Below are positions 34,177 through 43,945 of a stretch of 57,464 nucleotides of DNA, in pieces. The stretch is from Brasilonema angustatum HA4187-MV1. Its GTDB lineage: Bacteria; Cyanobacteriota; Cyanobacteriia; Cyanobacteriales; Nostocaceae. How positions within the stretch are numbered: position 1 is the stretch's first letter; every line of letters begins with the position of its first letter. The DNA lies in the NCBI GenBank assembly GCA_019359695.1, contig JAHHGV010000051.1, forward strand, positions 1-57,464, written 5' to 3'. The notes under the pieces were generated by a model, which saw only the letters and a list, made by a program, of their open reading frames with translations, was not told where the DNA came from and made no database searches. The position numbers and the translations under genes were made by a program.

Positions 34177-35811
34177 CTATGCAGGAAAGTTTCCCAACGT
34201 AGATGCCAAAACAGCGCTGAGATAATTCGTCAGAGTATGGGCATCTACTCCCAATTCTGTGCGCTCTTGTGCTGCTAAAATTGCTGCTTGAGAATGCCAC
34301 CAAGCACCAGTTGCAACAATCTCCTCTACAGAAATCTTTTTAGAAGAAGCTTGCGCTAATAATCCACCAATCAACCCAGTTAAAACATCTCCACTACCAC
34401 CACGCCCCAAGGCTGGCGTACTTTCGGGATTAATCCAAACGGTTCCTTGGGAGTTGGCAATAACAGTTCTTGCGCCTTTCAATAACACCACTGCACCACT
34501 TTGCGCCGCCGCTTCCCGCGTTGCTTTGACTCTGTGGTGATTAGCATCAGGAATGTCAGGAAACAACCGCTTGAATTCACCCGCATGTGGTGTAAGTACG
34601 GTTACTTCTTGTCGTTTTTGTAACGTCTGAAAGTTTCTCATTTCAGCCAAGATATTCAAACCATCAGCATCTAGAAGTAAGGGGCTAGTGCTATCTAATA
34701 CTTCTTGTAAAATTGGGCTGGCATCTCGGGTTAAGCCGGGACCACAGGCGATCGCACTAAATGAACTCAAATCCGTTTTTGGTGGGAGTTGCAGTTGAGC
34801 GATCGCCCCAGATTCTGTTTCCGGACAACCAATAATCAACGCTTCTGGTAACTGCGCCACCATGATAGATTTGAGAGATTCTGGTACAGCAATTGAGAGC
34901 ATACCGACACCACTTGCTCGCGCACCCAACCCAGTTAATATTGCTCCTCCCGAATACCGACGCGAACCACAAATCAACAGCAAGTGCCCTTCCTTATATT
35001 TATGCGTGACTGGCGGACGGGGTAAAGGCAGAGTAGAGAGGGCTGTTGTTTTTGTGATGCGTTTAGTACTTGGTGAATTTTCCAGTACCGCTTGTATATC
35101 AGCCAAGGGAAAATCAAAATCTATTAACTCAGCTTTACCGATATAATCGAGAGCTTCGTCTTGCAATAAACCCAGCTTCCACAAACCTAAGCAAAAAGTG
35201 TGTGTAGCACGTACCGCAGTTCCCAACACCTCACCCGTATCTGTGTGCAACCCCGAAGGCAAATCGATACTAATAATCGGTTTGTGCCATTCATTGAGCT
35301 GATTGATAGCAGTAGCGATTGGATCTGTGAGCGTTCTTTCTAAGCCAAATCCAAACAACCCATCAATTAATAAATCACAATCTTGCAGTGGCTCAATGGA
35401 GTCATAACACGGCAAACCCAAACTTTTAGAATACTGCAAGTGCTGGGAAGTTAATTCCTTAAGTTTAGAGAAAGGGCAATATATTAAAACTTCATAGCCA
35501 CGAAAGTATAACTCTCGCGCAACAACCAAAGCATCACCACCATTATGACCAGGACCGACGAGAATTCCTACGTGGGAGGGAGGGAGTCTTAGCGAAGCGA
35601 GCCGTAGGCTGGGAGATGAGGAAGCTTTCCCTTTGTTTTCTTGTTGGCAAGACAGGGGGTAAATATCCTGAACACGACGCGCAATAAGTCCTGCCACTTT
35701 TTCCATCAAAGCTACCACAGGCATTCCCGCTGTAAAAATACGCTTTTCGATTTCGTGCATTTGCTGTGCGGTGACGATGACTTGTGCAATTTGTTCTTGC
35801 CTGTCTTTCAT
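34177..35811 (-). CDS. nnr: Bifunctional NAD(P)H-hydrate epimerase / ADP-dependent dehydratase
   Basis: A 544-residue fusion. The N-terminal YjeF_N (epimerase) domain spans about 1-235, with GPGHNGGDALVVARELYFRGY, IDGLFGFGLERTL and SIDLPSGLHTDTGE. The C-terminal carbohydrate-kinase-like dehydratase domain spans about 255-540, with LLICGSRRYSGGAILTGLGA, LTPHAGEFKRLFPD and GRGGSGDVLTGLIGGLLAQ. Together they repair hydrated NAD(P)H. Between the first helices and strand 1 of the epimerase domain lies a non-conserved insertion of about 25 residues (about 57-80, KGKASSSPSLRLASLRLPPS). Its DNA contains cccagcctacgg-type repeat sequence also seen near 55150, so a repeat appears to have been taken into the frame. 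Confidence 0.93.
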   Translation of the reverse strand: MKDRQEQIAQVIVTAQQMHEIEKRIFTAGMPVVALMEKVAGLIARRVQDIYPLSCQQENKGKASSSPSLRLASLRLPPSHVGILVGPGHNGGDALVVARELYFRGYEVLIYCPFSKLKELTSQHLQYSKSLGLPCYDSIEPLQDCDLLIDGLFGFGLERTLTDPIATAINQLNEWHKPIISIDLPSGLHTDTGEVLGTAVRATHTFCLGLWKLGLLQDEALDYIGKAELIDFDFPLADIQAVLENSPSTKRITKTTALSTLPLPRPPVTHKYKEGHLLLICGSRRYSGGAILTGLGARASGVGMLSIAVPESLKSIMVAQLPEALIIGCPETESGAIAQLQLPPKTDLSSFSAIACGPGLTRDASPILQEVLDSTSPLLLDADGLNILAEMRNFQTLQKRQEVTVLTPHAGEFKRLFPDIPDANHHRVKATREAAAQSGAVVLLKGARTVIANSQGTVWINPESTPALGRGGSGDVLTGLIGGLLAQASSKKISVEEIVATGAWWHSQAAILAAQERTELGVDAHTLTNYLSAVLASTLGNFPA

Positions 35812-35900: not shown

Positions 35901-36074
35901 TTAATCTGAGGAAAAATCACCGGATAAAAAATCTTTATTTTGTATACTAGTTGATAATTGGGGCGATTTCTCTGTCAACAACACGGGGTTAGAACCTGTT
36001 GCTTCTAATTTTGCACCGCAGTTTTTACAGGTGAAATCAAGCCCAATTGATTCAATCTGTTAACAACAATGACA
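35901..36074 (-). pseudogene. Zinc-ribbon protein remnant
   Basis: On the minus strand the reading ITSCHCC, stop, QIESIGLDFTCKNCGAKLE, ATGSNPVLLTEKSPQ ends at a TAA (35901-35903). The two Cys pairs, SCHCC and CKNC, would make a treble-clef-like zinc ribbon, but a TAA (36060-36062) interrupts the frame between them, and no good start codon precedes it. The likely origin is a small zinc-ribbon gene divergent from the EAD1-CHAT-FGE gene. It is too short for confident family naming. Confidence 0.4.
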
Positions 36075-36098
36075 TGAAGTGATTAATTTTAACAAGCA

Positions 36099-38072
36099 AT
36101 GAATCTGTCTGGTTCGGAATATCAGAAAGTATTTGAAGCCATTATCAGTGCTTATCCAAGCAAAATTAGTTTACAGATGATGGTTATGTTTAAATTAGAT
36201 GAAAATTTAGATGAAATAGCTGGAGGTGGAAATTTTAGAGAAGTTGTTTTTAAGTTGATGGAATGGGCTAAGTCACAAGGTAAGTTAGAACAACTTCTTA
36301 AAGGTGCGCATGAAGATAATCCTGGTAATCAAGAATTAAAAGATATATACCATAAAATTTTTCCCAATTTATCAAATTACGATCAACAGGACTTAGGCAC
36401 GAACAACGTAACTACTGTCATTGCGATCGAAGGGAAGCAATCGCAACCCGCTCTTTCTGGTAGCGCGTGCGTAAGTCCTAAGCAAAAAATTTTACTATTG
36501 GCGGCGCTTCCGCAAAACTTACGTGTAGATAGAGAAATCCGGGACATAGAAGAAGCCATCAAACGAGCAGTCAGAAGAGATTCATTTGAAATTAAAATTA
36601 GAACTGCTGTACGCCCCCAAGATATTCGTAGAGCACTTGCAGAAGAAATGCCTCAAATTGTGCATTTCTGCGGACATGGTATGCAGGATGGCAGTTTAGT
36701 ATTAGAAGATGATGGAGGAAACCATAAACCTGTATTACCAAGAGGACTAGCAGCATTGTTTAAGCTGCATAGTGATTATGTAAAATGTGTATTACTTAAT
36801 GCTTGTTATTCAGCTTTACCTGCTGAAGCAATTAGCAAACATATTAATTATGTAATTGGCATGGAGCAGCCAATTGAGGACAGAGCAGCGATTGTATTTG
36901 CTGAAGGATTTTATGATGGGCTGGGATATGACAATGTTGATAATAAAGATGTAATTCAAAGAGCTTTCGATGAGGGTATCGTTGCTATTGAATTAGAAAA
37001 TATTTTACAGGATACAATACCTTATTTATGGAAGTTGGGTGTTGCTCAAGGTGAGAAGTCTTCTCCAATAGTAGAGCCTGTGATTGAGAGCAAGTCCTCA
37101 CCTCAAACCCGAACTTTTGAGGGTGAGAAGTCTTCTCCAATAGTAGAGCCTGTGATTGAGAGGAAATCCTCACCTCAAACCCCAACTTTTGAGTTTGATG
37201 TTATCACGGTAAATGCTCAAGGACAGGAAATTAAACGAGAAAAACGCCAAGCTCAATATTACCTTGAAAATGTAGGCAAGAACATCACCCTAGAAATGGT
37301 GGCTATCCCCGGTGGTAAATTTCTGATGGGTTCGCCACAAGGTGAAGGATATGAAAGAGAAAAACCTCAGCATGAAGTTACCGTTCAACCGTTTTTCATG
37401 GGTAAATATCCAATGACTCAAGCACAATGGCAAGTGGTAGCCGCATTACCCCAAATCAATCGAGAGCTAAAGCCAGAACCATCTTATTTTAAAGGTGATG
37501 ACTATCCTGTAGAACGCGTTTCCTGGTATGATGTAGTAGAGTTTTGTGCTAGATTATCTAAAAAGACAGGAAAAAATTATCGACTTCCGAGCGAAGCGGA
37601 GTGGGAATATGCCTGTCGTGCTGGAACCACAACACCATTTCACTTTGGTGAAACCCTGACAGATAAGTTAGCAAACTATGATGCCCGCACAACGTTTGCT
37701 AGCGAACCCCAAGGAGAGTATCGGGAAAAAACTACATCTGTAGGAACTTTCTCGCCTAACGCCTTTGGTTTATACGATATGCATGGGAATGTGTCGGAAT
37801 GGTGTGAAGATTCTTGTTCCTCGGAAAATTATGAGGGAGCGCCAACAGACGGAAGTGCTTGGCAGCATATTGATAATGACAATAATTGTAGAATTATGCG
37901 GGGTGGGTCGTGGTACTACAATCCTAAATGTTGCTGTTCTGCACTCCGCTACAGGTACGGTTCCGATATCGGCTACAACGATATAGGTTTTCGGGTTGTT
38001 TGTGCTGTTCCTGCGAGGACTCATATCAGTGAACAGTTATCAGTGAACACTTATCAAGGACTCCTGCGATAA
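36099..38072 (+). CDS. EAD1-CHAT-FGE protein: caspase-fold protease with formylglycine-enzyme-like domain
   Basis: A 657-residue three-domain protein. Residues 1-90 are an effector-associated domain 1 (EAD1): LSGSEYQKVFEAIISAYPS, LDENLDEIAGGGNFREVVFK, LLKGAHEDNPGNQEL. Residues about 126-315 are a CHAT caspase-fold protease with His193 in FCGHG and Cys236 in LLNACYS. A linker has two 24-residue repeats (GEKSSPIVEPVIE-type, encoded at 37050-37193). Residues about 391-636 are an FGE-sulfatase (SUMF1) domain of C-type-lectin fold: GGKFLMGSP, VERVSWYDVVEFC, YRLPSEAEWEYACRAG, GNVSEWCED, IMRGGSWYYNP, IGFRVVC. EADs are known as homotypic adaptors in bacterial conflict systems, where CHAT acts as the effector. 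The FGE segment here probably recognises a ligand, since such domains often lack catalysis. The last 17 residues derive from repeat sequence. Confidence 0.88.
   Translation: MNLSGSEYQKVFEAIISAYPSKISLQMMVMFKLDENLDEIAGGGNFREVVFKLMEWAKSQGKLEQLLKGAHEDNPGNQELKDIYHKIFPNLSNYDQQDLGTNNVTTVIAIEGKQSQPALSGSACVSPKQKILLLAALPQNLRVDREIRDIEEAIKRAVRRDSFEIKIRTAVRPQDIRRALAEEMPQIVHFCGHGMQDGSLVLEDDGGNHKPVLPRGLAALFKLHSDYVKCVLLNACYSALPAEAISKHINYVIGMEQPIEDRAAIVFAEGFYDGLGYDNVDNKDVIQRAFDEGIVAIELENILQDTIPYLWKLGVAQGEKSSPIVEPVIESKSSPQTRTFEGEKSSPIVEPVIERKSSPQTPTFEFDVITVNAQGQEIKREKRQAQYYLENVGKNITLEMVAIPGGKFLMGSPQGEGYEREKPQHEVTVQPFFMGKYPMTQAQWQVVAALPQINRELKPEPSYFKGDDYPVERVSWYDVVEFCARLSKKTGKNYRLPSEAEWEYACRAGTTTPFHFGETLTDKLANYDARTTFASEPQGEYREKTTSVGTFSPNAFGLYDMHGNVSEWCEDSCSSENYEGAPTDGSAWQHIDNDNNCRIMRGGSWYYNPKCCCSALRYRYGSDIGYNDIGFRVVCAVPARTHISEQLSVNTYQGLLR
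37050..37193 (+). repeat. Tandem 72-bp in-frame repeat in the CHAT-FGE linker
   Basis: Two direct 72-bp units (37050-37121 and 37122-37193) differ at only a few positions and encode 24 residues each, GEKSSPIVEPVIESKSSPQT-like. It lengthens the flexible linker between the CHAT and FGE domains and is a recent duplication. Confidence 0.9.
37899..38000 (+). other. Candidate DGR variable region at the FGE C-terminus
   Basis: Between RGGSW (residues 601-605) and IGFRVV (629-634), most codons are NNC or NNT types that single-base changes at adenines of AAC/AAT would produce: TAC, TAC, AAT, TGT, CTC, TAC, TAC, GGT, TCC, ATC, GGC, TAC, AAC, GAT. This is the signature of a variable repeat in DGR target proteins, where such residues lie on the C-type-lectin ligand surface. 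No reverse transcriptase or template repeat is in the window, so it could only be served in trans, or be an ordinary FGE end. Confidence 0.45.
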
Positions 38073-38096
38073 CTGATAACTGATAACTGATAACTG
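38069..38096 (+). repeat. Heptanucleotide repeat ataactg, four copies
   Basis: Four exact ataactg units start at the stop codon of the CHAT-FGE gene. Related cagtgaac / ttatcag sequence lies within its last codons, so the C-terminal tail of that protein was generated by repeat sequence. Confidence 0.9.
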
Positions 38097-38101
38097 AATA
38101 A

Positions 38102-38983
38102 TTACTTTCCGTAGTAAACTCTCGCATTACCAAATCTTGAATCCTTGCGCAGATAGCTATTCCATTCTTCTGCCTGCCAACGGTTGACAAAAGGTCCAAC
38201 TGCTACATGTGGTCCTCGCGGTTCAAGTCTGGGGATGACGTATACATCTCGTTCTGCGTAGAAATTTCGTCCGATGTAGCTTCTGATTTCGTTTCTATAG
38301 CGGGGTAACTCTTCCGACTTGGCAGGAAGAACGACATAGTAATAACTAGATCGTCTACCAGAATCGCCTCTATCGTAATCACCTCTACGATAATTGTCTC
38401 TACCAGAATCATAGGGAACGTCGGGTTGATCGCGTCCACGTCCCTTATAAACAATGCGATCGCTATAAACAACTCTTGCAGAATATACCCCATCAGATTC
38501 CAGTCGTCTGGCTAGGCTTCTAGCTCCTTCTCTTGTCCTAAAAGCTCCTACTTGAATCACAGAACGTCCTTGAAACCGTTGTCTAAAAGCATTTCTGGGA
38601 ATTAGACCTGTTCCTCGCCGTCCATAACCATTGTCATCAATATACACCTTGTAGGGAGCATAACCACGGTTAGATCCATAAGAGGGTGCTTCAGGTGCTT
38701 GGAATTCAATAGAACGTTGGGACGATGTATTCACCTCAGGAGGTGTATAACCTTGTGAACCTGACGGTTCTGCTGGAAACGGTTCATCTGAAGGTGCAGG
38801 CGGAACACCATCATACACTGATCGTCGCTGTGCTATGAAAACTTCGCTAGGATTGATTTGGGCATATGCTAAGTTAGATTGAGATAAAAAAACTAACCAC
38901 CCTCCTAAGAGCAAGCGCAAAATCAAAGATGGTTGGCTCCATTTGATAAATGCCATAATCTGATTCGGTATTGCACTGACCAT
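38102..38983 (-). CDS. Secreted SPOR-like domain protein
   Basis: A 293-residue protein with a signal peptide (SLILRLLLGGWLVFLSQSNLAYAQ) and then a Pro/Ser-rich region. The SPOR-like beta-alpha-beta repeats are RSVIQVGAFRTREGARSLARRL (about 139-160) and PHVAVGPFVNRWQAEEWNSYL (about 256-276). Between them is a long Arg/Asp/Tyr/Gly-rich low-complexity stretch (DNYRRGDYDRGDSGRRSSYY). SPOR domains bind denuded septal glycan strands, so an envelope or division-site role is likely. The protein has two half-domains instead of one compact SPOR domain. Convergent with the CHAT-FGE gene and divergent from mnmA. Confidence 0.75.
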   Translation of the reverse strand: MVSAIPNQIMAFIKWSQPSLILRLLLGGWLVFLSQSNLAYAQINPSEVFIAQRRSVYDGVPPAPSDEPFPAEPSGSQGYTPPEVNTSSQRSIEFQAPEAPSYGSNRGYAPYKVYIDDNGYGRRGTGLIPRNAFRQRFQGRSVIQVGAFRTREGARSLARRLESDGVYSARVVYSDRIVYKGRGRDQPDVPYDSGRDNYRRGDYDRGDSGRRSSYYYVVLPAKSEELPRYRNEIRSYIGRNFYAERDVYVIPRLEPRGPHVAVGPFVNRWQAEEWNSYLRKDSRFGNARVYYGK

Positions 38984-39099
38984 ATTATTAGCAGCAAAAA
39001 TTTTAAATGATTTTCTTGACTAAAAAATAATCGAGTGATTTAATCCAAAATCTAAAACATAGGAATCCGGTTTGGTTTATGAAGTTACTAGTTGAGCTA

Positions 39100-39127
39100 G
39101 GGAACAGGGAACAGGGAACAGGGAACA
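39100..39127 (+). repeat. Heptanucleotide repeat gggaaca, four copies
   Basis: Four exact gggaaca units in the divergent region between the SPOR gene and mnmA, 110 bp upstream of mnmA. The dispersed motif aggaatccggtttg lies just before it (about 39061). Confidence 0.9.
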
Positions 39128-39236
39128 GGAAATAGAGAACACTTAACAGAAACTGTACGGAGTTCTGTTCAAAAATCAAATAGAAATCCAATATCTTGAT
39201 TTATGTAGTAATTTTATACAAGAAGCGAACTCTTTT

Positions 39237-40304
39237 ATGAACAAAATTGTAGTTGGTCTTTCTGGTGGCGTTGATAGTTCCACCGCAGCAGCCATTTTGC
39301 ACGATCAAGGCTATGAAGTGATTGGTTTAACCCTTTGGTTGATGAAGGGGAAAGGTCAGTGTTGCTCTGAAGGTATGATTGATGCAGCTTATATCTGTGA
39401 GCAGCTAGGTATTCCCCATCATATTGTTGATATTCGGGACGTCTTTCAAACTAATATCATTGATTACTTGGTGGGTGGTTACAGTACTGGGATCACTCCT
39501 TTGCCTTGCTCACAATGTAACAAAACTGTAAAATTTGGTCCGATGTTGCAATACGCGCGGGAAAATTTAGAGTGCGATCGCATTGCCACTGGTCACTATG
39601 CTCGCATTCAATATGATCCCGCTACTGGACGCTACCAATTGCTGCGTGCATTTGATCGCAACAAAGACCAGTCCTACTTTCTCTATGATTTGTCGCAAGA
39701 ACTACTAGCAGGAAGTGTATTTCCACTAGGAGAGTTACAAAAAAGCGAAACTCGTCATCTGGCTGATGAATACAAGTTGAAAACAGCAGATAAGCCAGAA
39801 AGCCAAGACTTATGCTTGGTGGAAAGTAACGGCTCAATGCGAGCGTTTCTAGATAAGTATCTTGCGCCCAAAAAAGGAGATATTGTTGATACTTCAGGTA
39901 AAATTCTGGGTGAACATGATGGTGTTCATCATTACACAATTGGGCAACGTAAGGGTATAGGTATCGCCGCCGCTGAACCACTGTATGTGATTGCATTGGA
40001 TGCAGTGAATAACAGGGTGATTGTGGGCGATCGCACCAAAGTAACCGAACCAGAATGTACTGTACAAAGGGTTAATTGGGTATCCATTGCTGAACCATCA
40101 AGTCCCATTCGGGCGGAAGTTCAAATTCGCTATCGTTCCACTCCTGTACCAGTCACAGTTATTCCCGCAGATTATTCTCGTGTTCGCTTAGTGTTTGATG
40201 AACCTCAATTCAGCATTACTCCCGGACAAGCTGCTGTGTGGTACGAAGGGGAGAAGGTGTTAGGTGGGGGGATCATTGAGCAAACAGTGAACAGGGAACA
40301 GTGA
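39237..40304 (+). CDS. mnmA: tRNA-specific 2-thiouridylase MnmA
   Basis: A 355-residue enzyme that thiolates U34 of tRNAs for Lys, Glu and Gln. The PP-loop ATP motif is [12 protein letters not shown] (residues 8-19). The catalytic Cys lies in [14 protein letters not shown] (Cys94 by family position) and the second catalytic Cys in ESQDLCLV (Cys193). [16 protein letters not shown] and the C-terminal barrel ([13 protein letters not shown]) are all present. The last residues, EQTVNREQ, are encoded by gggaaca/gtgaaca heptamer repeats, so the normal C-terminus has been altered slightly by repeat expansion. Confidence 0.96.
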
Positions 40305-40370
40305 ACAGTGAACAGGGAACAGGGAATAGTGAAAACTGGTAACTGATAACTGATAACTGATAACTGGTAA
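40284..40370 (+). repeat. Mixed heptanucleotide repeats (gtgaaca/gggaaca, then taactga)
   Basis: About seven gtgaaca or gggaaca units run from within the mnmA stop region to 40331, followed by four taactga-type units. They fill most of the gap between mnmA and sat. Confidence 0.88.
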
Positions 40371-40450
40371 CTTCGAATCTGCGAAACGGAAAATGATAAG
40401 TTAATACATAGATTAAAAAAAAATGTAGTTATCGCAAACAAAGGACAGCC

Positions 40451-41638
40451 TTGAGTTATCATTACGATGGCATAGCCCCTCACGGTGGGCAATTGGTGAA
40501 TCGCATCGCTACACCTGAGCAAAAACAAGTATTTCTTTCAAAAGCCGACTTTCTACCGCGAGTTCAACTTAATGAACGAGCAGTATCAGATTTGCAAATG
40601 ATTGCAATTGGCGGTTTGAGTCCACTAACTGGTTTTATGAACCAGGAGGACTATAACGGTGTTGTTGCTCAAATGCGTCTCGCCAACGGTACCGTTTGGT
40701 CAATTCCTGTTACACTCTCGGTGAGTGAACAAGTCGCCGCCCCCTTAAAAGAAGGTGATTTGATTCGCTTGGATAATCCTGCTGGTGAATATATCGGGGT
40801 ATTAGAACTAACACAAAAATATCACTACGATAAGACTCGTGAAGCGGTTCATGTTTATCGAACCAATGACTCAAAGCATCCTGGTGTACAGGTAGTTTAC
40901 AATCAAGGTTCTGTAAATTTAGCAGGTGATGTGTGGTTATTAGAACGCAAGTCTCATCCTCTGTTTCCAAAATACCAAGTTGATCCTGTCGAGTCTCGGC
41001 AGTTGTTTCAGCAAATGGGCTGGAAAACTGTTGTTGGGTTCCAAACTCGCAACCCGATCCACCGCGCCCATGAATATATCCAAAAGTGCGCCCTAGAAAT
41101 TGTGGATGGTCTATTTTTGCACCCATTGGTTGGGGCGACGAAAGAAGATGACATTCCCGCAGATGTGCGAATGCGCTGTTACGAAATTTTGATGGAAAAA
41201 TACTACCCACATAACCGCGTCCTTTTAGCAATTAATCCCTCGGCTATGCGTTATGCTGGTCCTCGGGAGGCAATTTTCCATGCTTTGATTCGCAAGAACT
41301 ACGGTTGCACTCACTTTATCGTAGGACGGGATCATGCTGGCGTAGGAAATTACTACGGCACTTATGATGCTCAGTACATCTTTGATGAGTTTAAGCCTGA
41401 AGAACTGGGCATTGTACCGATGATGTTTGAACACGCCTTTTACTGCATGCGTACCCAGCAAATGGCGACAGACAAAACAAGTCCTAGTCTTCCAGAAGAG
41501 CGGATTCATCTTTCGGGAACAAAAGTGCGGGAAATGCTGCGCCGAGGCGAGTTACCTCCACCAGAATTTTCTCGTCCAGAGGTGGCGGCAGAATTGGCAC
41601 GCGCAATCCGAGTACCAGTTCATACTTACGAAATTTAA
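40451..41638 (+). CDS. sat: Sulfate adenylyltransferase (ATP sulfurylase)
   Basis: A 395-residue homo-oligomeric-type ATP sulfurylase, forming APS from sulfate and ATP at the first step of assimilation. The start is a TTG (40451) preceded by AAGGA, since the conserved [20 protein letters not shown]-terminus begins there. Active-site motifs [14 protein letters not shown] and [12 protein letters not shown] are present. The Cys-free C-terminal end RVPVHTYEI is typical, with no APS-kinase fusion. Separated from mnmA by tandem repeats, so it probably has its own promoter. Confidence 0.96.
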
Positions 41639-41743: not shown

Positions 41744-43945
41744 ATGAAGCGGCGAACGTTTTTAGAAAGTTTTGGCTCTATATTTGGGGTGTTGAGTGCG
41801 ATTGAAACTGGGTGGTTGACATTAGGAAGCCGCTACTATCAAGCTTTAGCACAATCTGCACCGCGTAAATTGGCTTTATTAGTCGGGATTAATCAGTACC
41901 CACAATCTCCAGCTTTGAGCGGTTGTCTAACTGATGTGGAACTACAAAGGGAACTTTTGATTCACCGCTTTGGTTTCCAACCCTCTGATATTATCTCGTT
42001 AACTAATGAACAAGCGACAAGAAAAGCTATTGAGAGGACTTTTTTCGAGCATCTGGTTAAGCAAGCTAAATCTGATGATGTAGTTGTCTTCCACTATAGT
42101 GGCTATGGCAGTCGTGTCAAATTAGAAATGCAAGAAACAGAGCAAAACGCTCTTGTTTTATTTAATGATAGAGATGGACAAGAAAGTAAAAAAGTCAACT
42201 ATTTATTAGAAGAAACACTGTTGCTGATGTTGCGATCGCTTGCCACAAAGCATGTAGCAGCAGTGTTAGATACAAGCTACTATGGGACCTCTAACTCTTT
42301 ACTAACAAACCTAAAAATTCGCGCCCTCCCACAACCAGAACAAGCTATCTTCTTACCAGAAGAACTTGAGTTGCAAAAACAGTTACAAGCAAAAGTCTCT
42401 AGTGAAGAGTCAGTTATTGTGCTTTGCGCAACCTCTACCCCCAAGGAATTCGCAAGGGAGGGACAGTTATCTGGTTTTAGTGCGGGATTATTTACTTATG
42501 CCTTAACCCAGTACTTATGGCAAGCCACACCAGCAACAACAATTCAAGTCTGCCTATCTCATGTGGCAGGTTCTATTCAGCAGTTGGGTAGTACAAAACA
42601 GCAACCAGCTTTATTGCTAGATAGCAAAAGTCAGCTTTCCCGTACACCAATTGGAGATATTTTGCTTCCAAACACCAGCAGTGCAGAAGGAGTGGTTACA
42701 GGAGTGGAGGACGATGGGAAAACAATCCTACTGTGGCTGGGAGGAGTACCTGCACAAGTACTGGAATACTACGGAGTCAATTCACAATTCACGATCATTA
42801 CAAAAGAAGGATCGAACATACAGCTGATTTTGAAATCGCGTGCTGGGTTGACAGCAAAAGCGCAAATGTTGAGTTCTGATGGTACAACTTCTCCCCAAGT
42901 CGGACAACTTGTTCAGGAAGCTGTGCGAGTTATACCCCGAAATATTGGTTTAACAGTCGCCCTGAATGGACTCGAAAGAATTGAACGAGTGGATGCAACA
43001 AGTGCCTTTTCAACCGCCACCCATTTACTAAGCGTAGTCACCGGAGAACAACCAGCAGATTATTTGTTTGGAAAAGTAGCTGAAGCGAAGAATAAAGATT
43101 TAGAAGCAACAGACTCTACAGCCGTGTCTCGCAGTCCTTACGGTTTATTCTCTCCTGGTGGCGAGTTCATTCCAAGCAGTGGTGGAGAAGCTAAAGAAGC
43201 AGTGAAGGTGGCTGCACAGCGGTTAAAACCAAAACTAGGAACTTTACTGGCGGCAAAATTATGGGGACTCACACAAAATACAGGATCTTCTGGCTTGGGG
43301 ATTAAGGCAACATTAGAGATCATAGGTTCTTTAACACCTAGGGCAGTCATACAACGAGAAACACTGCCAAACCAAACCACTCAAACATCAAACAAGAAGT
43401 CATTCAATCCTGAACTTGGTGATATTCCCACTGTCAGCGTTGGCAGTAAGATACAGTATCGAGTGGAAAACAAGAGCTCGCGCCCTGTTTATCTGATGCT
43501 GCTAGGATTAAATAGCAGTAGAACTGCGATCGCCCTGGTGCCTTGGTACAAAGATACTGAAGCAGACTCATCGCAAACCAAACTAGTCGCTAAAGATATA
43601 GTTATCTCCCCAGGAGAAACTTTAACAGTACCACAAACGACTTCAGGTTTTGAATGGGTTGTGCAAGCACCAAGTTCCTTAAGTGAAACCCAACTTATTT
43701 TTAGTACTGCACCTTTTACCCAGTCCCTCGCTGCTTTAGAAGCTGCTAAGTATCCCAAAGCAGAACAGCACCGTATTCAGCCCTTGACAAATCCCCTAGA
43801 AGTCGTACAAGCTGTTCTACAAGATTTACATAATGCCAGTGCAATCAAGGATACGAACACTACAACGACTGATTCCTATATATTGGATGTGAATCATTGG
43901 GCAAGTCTTAGTTTTGTTTATCAGGTGGTTGAACAAAATTGCTAG
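41744..43945 (+). CDS. Pseudo-orthocaspase (caspase p20-like domain with Tyr/Ser in place of His/Cys)
   Basis: A 733-residue protein with a twin-Arg-like N-terminus (MKRRTFLESFGSIFGVLSAI) followed by a caspase-like p20 domain (about 40-300): KLALLVGINQYP, CLTDVELQRELL, VVVFHYSGYGSRV and VAAVLDTSYYGTSN. By alignment to orthocaspase motifs HYSGHG and LDSCHSG, the catalytic His is Tyr121 and the catalytic Cys is Ser178, so classical cysteine-protease activity should be absent. Pseudo-orthocaspases with Tyr/Ser pairs have been described in cyanobacteria. The C-terminal half (about 305-733) includes a beta-rich DUF4384-like region (KIQYRVENKSSRPVYLMLLG, VSPGETLTVP-like). The RR motif suggests export through Tat. 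It may bind substrates or act as a scaffold in the periplasm. Confidence 0.85.
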   Translation: MKRRTFLESFGSIFGVLSAIETGWLTLGSRYYQALAQSAPRKLALLVGINQYPQSPALSGCLTDVELQRELLIHRFGFQPSDIISLTNEQATRKAIERTFFEHLVKQAKSDDVVVFHYSGYGSRVKLEMQETEQNALVLFNDRDGQESKKVNYLLEETLLLMLRSLATKHVAAVLDTSYYGTSNSLLTNLKIRALPQPEQAIFLPEELELQKQLQAKVSSEESVIVLCATSTPKEFAREGQLSGFSAGLFTYALTQYLWQATPATTIQVCLSHVAGSIQQLGSTKQQPALLLDSKSQLSRTPIGDILLPNTSSAEGVVTGVEDDGKTILLWLGGVPAQVLEYYGVNSQFTIITKEGSNIQLILKSRAGLTAKAQMLSSDGTTSPQVGQLVQEAVRVIPRNIGLTVALNGLERIERVDATSAFSTATHLLSVVTGEQPADYLFGKVAEAKNKDLEATDSTAVSRSPYGLFSPGGEFIPSSGGEAKEAVKVAAQRLKPKLGTLLAAKLWGLTQNTGSSGLGIKATLEIIGSLTPRAVIQRETLPNQTTQTSNKKSFNPELGDIPTVSVGSKIQYRVENKSSRPVYLMLLGLNSSRTAIALVPWYKDTEADSSQTKLVAKDIVISPGETLTVPQTTSGFEWVVQAPSSLSETQLIFSTAPFTQSLAALEAAKYPKAEQHRIQPLTNPLEVVQAVLQDLHNASAIKDTNTTTTDSYILDVNHWASLSFVYQVVEQNC

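Follow-up and report, generated by a model that had tools for sequence, protein, structure and literature searches.

A single-chain EAD1-CHAT-FGE protein of Brasilonema angustatum, probably condensed from a retroelement-diversified ternary conflict system

The window considered here is the whole 57,464-nt stretch of Brasilonema angustatum HA4187-MV1 on contig JAHHGV010000051.1 (GCA_019359695.1), taken from a draft genome (98 contigs, 99.73% complete) that is labeled G000; compared genomes, contigs of a genome, and loci are labeled G###, C##, and L###, respectively. At positions 36099..38072 on the plus strand, an open frame of 657 aa encodes a protein that joins an effector-associated domain (EAD1), a CHAT caspase-like protease, and an FGE-type domain of the C-type-lectin (CLec) fold. 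Probably, this gene arose when a VMAP ternary conflict system, which formerly stood at the site and was diversified by a diversity-generating retroelement (DGR), was condensed into a single-chain sensor-protease. The three-domain architecture in one polypeptide, already proposed in an earlier note made from the DNA sequence alone, is borne out by Pfam matches above the cut-off for each domain: EAD1 (residues 1–85; 36099..36353, +; PF19955, 85 bits against 24.2), CHAT (residues 128–317; 36480..37049, +; PF12770 at residues 142–275, 37.4 bits against 24), and FGE (residues 399–634; 37293..38000, +; FGE-sulfatase PF03781, 191.3 bits against 23.3). The catalytic dyad named in the same note is intact, with His193 (codon 36675..36677, +) in CGHG and Cys236 (codon 36804..36806, +) in LNAC; in an alignment to 8tl0_A, a CHAT protein of solved structure (E 6.5e-11), they fall on its GHG and NAC motifs. 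Furthermore, the protein matches the chat model of PADLOC (E 7.1e-14) and, weakly, the SAVED_CHAT model.

The first line of evidence is the chromosomal site itself. In the window, the gene is flanked on the left by nnrDE (34177..35811, −; YjeF_N/Carb_kinase by Pfam) and on the right by a gene for a SPOR-domain protein (38102..38983, −; Pfam), followed by the conserved mnmA (39237..40304, +; gene name from sequence reading), and no AAA, vWA, or VMAP gene was found among the open reading frames (ORFs) read between nnrDE and the SPOR gene. In the same-genus genome G143, this site holds an EAD1-VMAP gene (VMAP-C, E 4e-28), a gene for an AAA protein (Pfam AAA_5/AAA, called MoxR-type by context), a vWA-like-FGE target (the vWA call coming from sequence reading, with no vWA match in Pfam), a reverse transcriptase (RT), and a template; template, RT, and target adjoin sat, mnmA, and the SPOR gene (window equivalents 38102–41638), with nnrDE on the other side. 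The site of G092 comprises EAD1-trypsin, a 139-aa ORF, EAD1-VMAP, AAA, and vWA-GUN4-FGE genes, of which EAD1-VMAP and AAA were assigned by similarity to those of G143 (71 and 84%, respectively), and the G143 RT query returned no RT match in G092. The G092 target (L122, 7169–10249) is a vWA-like-FGE protein with GUN4 inserted between both parts. The site encodes CHAT-FGE without EAD1 in G061, CHAT-FGE without EAD1 and with a broken reading frame in G011, and no cassette in G134, where 124 nt separate the flanking matches. The SPOR gene is present in 7/7 genus genomes, and nnrDE keeps its side of the cassette in G061, G011, G092, and G143 and is likewise present at the empty site of G134; in G111, SPOR, mnmA, sat, and caspase genes are present, and neither nnrDE nor the cassette lies within the 18.5 kb read. 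The caspase gene (Peptidase_C14 with DUF4384; window 41744–43945, +) stands beside sat in G061, G092, G143, and G111, whatever cassette adjoins nnrDE.

The G061 and G011 genes may be considered alleles that lost EAD1. Their DNA follows that of the window collinearly through ATG AAT ATG TCT GGT, codons 1–5 of EAD1, and picks up again where CHAT begins, so that the stretch 36114..36482 (+) is missing from both (DNA alignment and blastn). Because the residual five codons are the beginning of EAD1 itself, a deletion in these two genomes is a better reading of the sequences than an insertion in the window. A scan of the named genomes returned four loci, two of which are these alleles and two of which share the CHAT part only.

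The second line of evidence is the end of the FGE domain, RGGSWYYNPKCCCSALRYRYGSDIGYNDIGFRVVC, which resembles the variable region (VR) of a DGR, and sequence matches in Pfam and PDB place this VR on a C-type-lectin/FGE fold. Over the 103 nt of the VR core (37897..37999, +; delimited by comparison with the G143 template), 14/30 template adenines differ, versus 9/73 other bases; at codon positions 1–2, the difference is 14/29 versus 3/40 (p = 1.4e-4). The G143 template was chosen from a template pattern search of 192 family genomes, which gave places in 54 of them; among the 30 listed places that were read, it was the best by a score favoring A mismatches, and it also belongs to the same genus and the same site. 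After a 30-fold correction, the p-value of the window VR bias is ~0.004. The G143 target differs from its own template at 14/30 A and 0/73 non-A positions, as expected of a working DGR. Same-site VRs show a similar bias at codon positions 1–2 (G061, 16/29 versus 4/40; G092, 12/29 versus 1/40). Elsewhere in the B. angustatum genome, FGE genes on C28, C78, and C89 are biased toward template-A differences (p 1.9e-8 to 6.1e-6), as is a relic on C57 (p 5.8e-5), and the FGE end on C55 is weaker (20/29 versus 12/40, p 0.0014). As controls, the true FGE gene on C2 gave 21/29 versus 19/40 (p 0.03), and an FGE gene on C63 has no comparable motif. The match to the G143 template is poor for the ends of G011, G111a, and C55, with differences at 23, 29, and 28 of 73 non-A positions, respectively; these ends lend weak or no support, the G011 VR being out of register in the ungapped comparison. 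Given that neither a DGR-type RT nor a template was found in the draft genome (see below), the VR of the window is read as the DGR-type VR of a former target and not as a member of a working DGR. Other FGE proteins of the genome, encoded at L045 (12564–14348), L044 (86–1447), and L046 (7935–9836), carry VR-like ends with a template-A bias although no DGR RT was found; by sequence reading, the first is caspase-like and the other two are kinase-like. The C57 gene (L051, 7500–8650) is decayed, has a VR-like end, and is an apparent relic of a former DGR target.

No DGR-type RT or template was found in the draft genome itself. The genome has seven RVT_1 matches; all five full-length ones (5/5) carry QGxxxSP, and the two partial ones were left untyped. 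DGR RTs are marked by an SQ motif, which the G143 RT carries; when the latter was used as a query, a single match was obtained, an RT on C61 that is 29% identical and of the QGxxxSP type. The G143 template query recovered the window VR (E 9.8e-20) and the C57 relic (E 2.3e-15), all other matches having E ≥ 0.3. A diverged template could also be missed by this query, because the other VR-like FGE ends of the genome (C28, C55, C78, and C89) escaped it.

The VR also bears on the question of whether the FGE domain is enzymatic, since the FGE-sulfatase match could suggest that regulatory domains have been fused to a formylglycine-generating enzyme. In true FGE, the catalytic pair consists of two active-site cysteines that follow RGGS. 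By alignment to the FGE of known structure 6muj_A, Tyr607 (codon 37917..37919, +) occupies the place of the first, and Cys612 (codon 37932–37934, +) that of the second, so that the pair is incomplete, as the earlier note had thought might be seen. Tyr607 is, moreover, a template-A codon relative to the G143 template, and a separate FGE with both cysteines is encoded on C2. FGE-enzyme identity was thus rejected, and this alternative deserves almost no credence despite the high Pfam score. Of the findings that the note had named as fatal to its proposal, neither was encountered: the FGE residues are incomplete and no sulfatase gene was recognized in the ORFs read between 30 and 45 kb, and other EAD1 proteins exist, three in this genome besides that of the window and others in 7/7 genus genomes searched.

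The third line of evidence concerns the origin of the parts. The window EAD1 is closest to that of the same-site EAD1-VMAP protein of G143 (68%, the next being 50%; tree support 98/93), and the DNA at 36045–36379, which includes a 54-nt leader, is 83% identical to the 5′ end of that gene. Alleles aside, the closest non-allelic relatives of the FGE domain are, at 71% each, the vWA-FGE protein that G092 has at this site and an FGE gene located elsewhere in G111 and, at 68%, the same-site vWA-FGE protein of G143, and the FGE tree places these and G061 with it in a 96/96 group. CHAT, again leaving alleles aside, has its nearest relative in a different genus, the EAD1-CHAT-GUN4 protein of G120a (85% over 195 aa). 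The two group at 98/94 within a clade (100/100) that comprises EAD1-CHAT proteins and the alleles of this site, and their likeness stops at residue 322, inside the first linker repeat. The gene is thus, as judged from these relationships, a mosaic in which EAD1 and FGE/VR are related to genes of the site and CHAT belongs to the EAD1-CHAT family. The synonymous divergence (dS) of CHAT to the other genus, 0.27, lies below the flank dS between the window and G143 within the genus, 0.33–0.41, which, with these within-genus flanks as the only baseline, suggests a horizontal gain of CHAT. Discordant dS values between alleles (CHAT 0.077 versus flanks 0.25–0.32 for window–G011; FGE 0.339 versus flanks 0.08–0.16 for window–G061) indicate that recombination at the site seems to be frequent. 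EAD1-CHAT-FGE proteins of other genera (two copies in G047, and one each in G106 and G007) have CHAT parts that are 43–48% identical and lie outside the CHAT clade of the window, and the architecture therefore seems to have arisen at least twice. In addition, a domain scan of five EAD1-CHAT proteins with related CHAT (a sixth, of G166, was left out) found GUN4 (3), NB-ARC (1), or AAA_35 (1) in place of FGE, a pattern of swaps that would follow from a trigger set by the C-terminal part. The EAD1-CHAT-NB-ARC protein (G180, L150, 5108–7183) matches the winged-helix models of Apaf-1 and Dark weakly, with scores below the cut-off.

The CHAT and FGE parts are joined by a linker in which two 72-bp copies (37050..37121 and 37122..37193, both +) stand in tandem. 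The earlier note had described a recent 24-residue tandem duplication here; the two copies at 37050–37193, 96% identical, are confirmed, whereas the word "recent", understood as an event private to this genome, does not hold, because both same-genus alleles compared, G061 and G011, also carry two copies, with a pair identity of 92% in each. The vWA-FGE gene of G143 has a single linker copy, to which copy 2 of the window is related. The linker between EAD1 and CHAT includes a 47-bp piece (36435..36481, +) with an 87% match elsewhere in G111 (blastn against L144); it resembles a short repeat found elsewhere, with a 19-mer in a few loci, so that the linker may derive from a dispersed repeat.

The ratio of nonsynonymous to synonymous divergence (dN/dS) bears on whether the gene is merely a relic on its way out after the loss of the ternary and DGR system, with no selected function. 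Such a history is suggested by the sister alleles, which have lost EAD1 (G061 and G011), the frame (G011), or the whole cassette (G134), by the failure to find an RT or template in the draft genome, and by the decayed FGE gene on C57; set against it are 657 intact codons, the intact dyad, and dN/dS < 1 in both CHAT (0.28–0.54, three comparisons) and the FGE core (0.26–0.41, four comparisons), and the gain of CHAT is left unexplained by simple decay. Values were 0.51–0.73 in the VR and 0.75–0.87 in the linker of G061, G011, and G143; non-homologous rows, i.e., FGE and VR of G120a, CHAT of vWA proteins, and the linker of G092, were left out. On balance, we regard the relic explanation as unlikely. 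The intact dyad, dN/dS < 1 in CHAT and the FGE core, and the former DGR binding face are instead the grounds on which a self-contained sensor-protease, in which FGE would sense, CHAT would cleave, and EAD1 would dock or self-assemble, is held to be the most likely reading.

The role of EAD1 depends on its partners, and three further EAD1 proteins are encoded in the genome: EAD1-trypsin, EAD1-FGE (C55), and EAD1-VMAP (C58). The first two stand side by side (L042, 9028–11712, C55); by position only, similarly spaced EAD1 pairs occur in G061 (C136), G092 (C1:7.36 Mb), and G111 (C21). EAD1-VMAP and an adjoining AAA gene occupy the end of C58, and the start of C59 encodes a vWA-like protein that shares 43% identity with its G143 counterpart and runs on into TPR-like repeats; the EAD1-VMAP, AAA, and vWA-like genes are contiguous in G061. 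By gene content, a putative ternary core is thus kept elsewhere in the genome (C58/C59), so that EAD1 is fused to an effector in the window and a second EAD1 sits on a core component. An overlapping explanation, that the protein is one exchangeable CHAT effector recruited to this core by docking of its EAD1 on EAD1-VMAP, would follow the published principle that EADs are coupling adaptors (Kaur et al., 2020, PMC7159879). The EAD1s of the window, G143, G092, C58, and C55-FGE form one group (93/91), which agrees with it; within that group, however, the C58 EAD1 groups with that of C55-FGE (100/98), its likelier partner, and the window EAD1 stands apart from both, beside its G143 and G092 counterparts. 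For this reason, docking on the C58 core is possible without being the likeliest arrangement; the window and C58 EAD1s are ~36% identical. Recruitment to the C58/C59 core is accordingly rated as rather unlikely. The recruitment by another EAD1 protein that the earlier note had predicted is therefore upheld insofar as other EAD1 proteins are present, and the partner is uncertain because the nearest VMAP is absent from the window site and the EAD1s of the genome are so divergent.

The mechanism of the self-contained sensor-protease may be outlined as follows. The VR-bearing FGE domain would bind a ligand of phage, invader, or non-kin origin; CHAT would be activated by this binding or by clustering, with EAD1 assembling copies of the protein or docking onto another EAD1 protein; and CHAT would then cut partner proteins or other proteins of the cell, which would become dormant or die to the benefit of the filament. 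Ordinary mutation and recombination would by now be the only sources of change in the specificity of the receptor. Ligand activation, substrate, and cell death are inferred from published proposals (PMC7159879; PMC8195603; PMC10907252; PMC7517822), including the diversification of FGE/FGS domains by DGRs (PMC7159879; PMC8195603) and the view of DGR targets, one CHAT-TIR target among them, as antigen sensors (PMC10907252). A non-defensive signaling protease whose FGE domain reads a host ligand, and which might serve differentiation or the stress response, would suit the 62 CHAT matches of the genome and a survey that reads cyanobacterial DGR targets as regulatory (PMC7517822); the turnover of cassettes at one site within the genus, where one genome has none at all, is more in keeping with accessory conflict genes than with a core pathway, and we consider this alternative improbable.

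Several points weigh against the proposed condensation into a sensor-protease. The VR test relies on a template that comes from a different species and was the best among the 30 read, and the same template used as a query missed the other VR-like FGE ends of the genome. The window EAD1 is no closer than ~36% to each of the three other EAD1s, and its cognate VMAP is absent from the window site and stands there in G143. The discordant CHAT and FGE dS values imply a complex recombination history, so that the polarity of the series is inferred, and the losses in the sister alleles also fit decay. A structure prediction of the full protein (two-sequence alignment) reached a mean predicted local distance difference test (pLDDT) score of 30 and was not used, and the literature searched yielded no experimental work on EAD1-CHAT proteins. 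As a whole, the earlier interpretation, a protease whose binding domain sets its trigger or target, is partly supported; the DGR origin of the binding domain, which is the best evidence for a recognition role, had been overlooked.

Two observations in the window stand apart from this argument: heptamer repeats lie 3′ of the gene at 38068–38097, and a second CHAT domain (304–762, −), in a 245-aa open frame near the contig end, is 48% identical to the CHAT of the EAD1-CHAT-FGE protein.

The within-genus series at one site, i.e., DGR with ternary system, ternary system without detected RT, single-chain EAD1-CHAT-FGE, EAD1-less CHAT-FGE, broken copy, and empty site, lets the build-up and decay of bacterial apoptosis-like systems be compared directly. 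Furthermore, the idea that DGR-diversified FGE domains are antigen sensors becomes open to a simple test, because sensor and protease are in one chain. A more tentative and somewhat doubtful generalization is that an immune-like receptor, its binding site once shaped by targeted hypermutation, was captured and fixed with a caspase-like effector, recombination at this one site having condensed three genes and a retroelement to an innate-like single chain, and that EAD1-CHAT serves as a general chassis for FGE, GUN4, NB-ARC, and AAA_35. No description of an EAD1-CHAT-FGE fusion, or of a single gene replacing a DGR ternary system, was recognized in the literature, supplementary tables not being covered.

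Among known systems, the CHAT protein of PDB 8tl0 resembles the window protein in its CHAT domain with matching GHG and NAC motifs; its sensor is SAVED, and the window protein has FGE instead. The Treponema denticola variable protein 1 (PDB 2y3c), a DGR variable protein, shares the FGE/CLec-type domain (sequence match, E 2.1e-20) and differs in that EAD1 and CHAT are not reported in the match, a 294-residue chain. The variable proteins of cyanobacterial DGRs (Vallota-Eastman et al., 2020, PMC7517822) likewise have a C-terminal CLec domain with a VR and N-terminal signaling or protease domains, CHAT-like ones included, and remote targets and variable protein homologs have been described for these DGRs; in contrast, no RT or template was found in the window genome, and EAD1, present in the window protein, is a word absent from the main text of that paper. 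The DGR targets of Thiohalocapsa PB-PSB1, viewed as antigen sensors (Dore et al., 2024, PMC10907252), include one with CHAT and TIR and EAD8-STAND-FGE targets; they differ in that diversification is seen at most loci and RTs are present in the genome, and EAD1 does not occur in the main text. The STAND-FGS and bDLD/EAD systems, for which invader recognition has been proposed (Kaur et al., 2021, PMC8195603), combine EAD1 or other EADs with the FGS lectin fold in one chain, but an NTPase lies between adaptor and FGS where the window protein has the CHAT protease. Finally, the VMAP (MoxR-vWA) ternary systems (Kaur et al., 2020, PMC7159879) share EAD1, peptidase effectors, and FGE (FGS) domains as parts, and the same site in G143 and G092 holds one such system, whereas the window locus lacks AAA, vWA, and VMAP and has sensor, effector, and adaptor in one chain.

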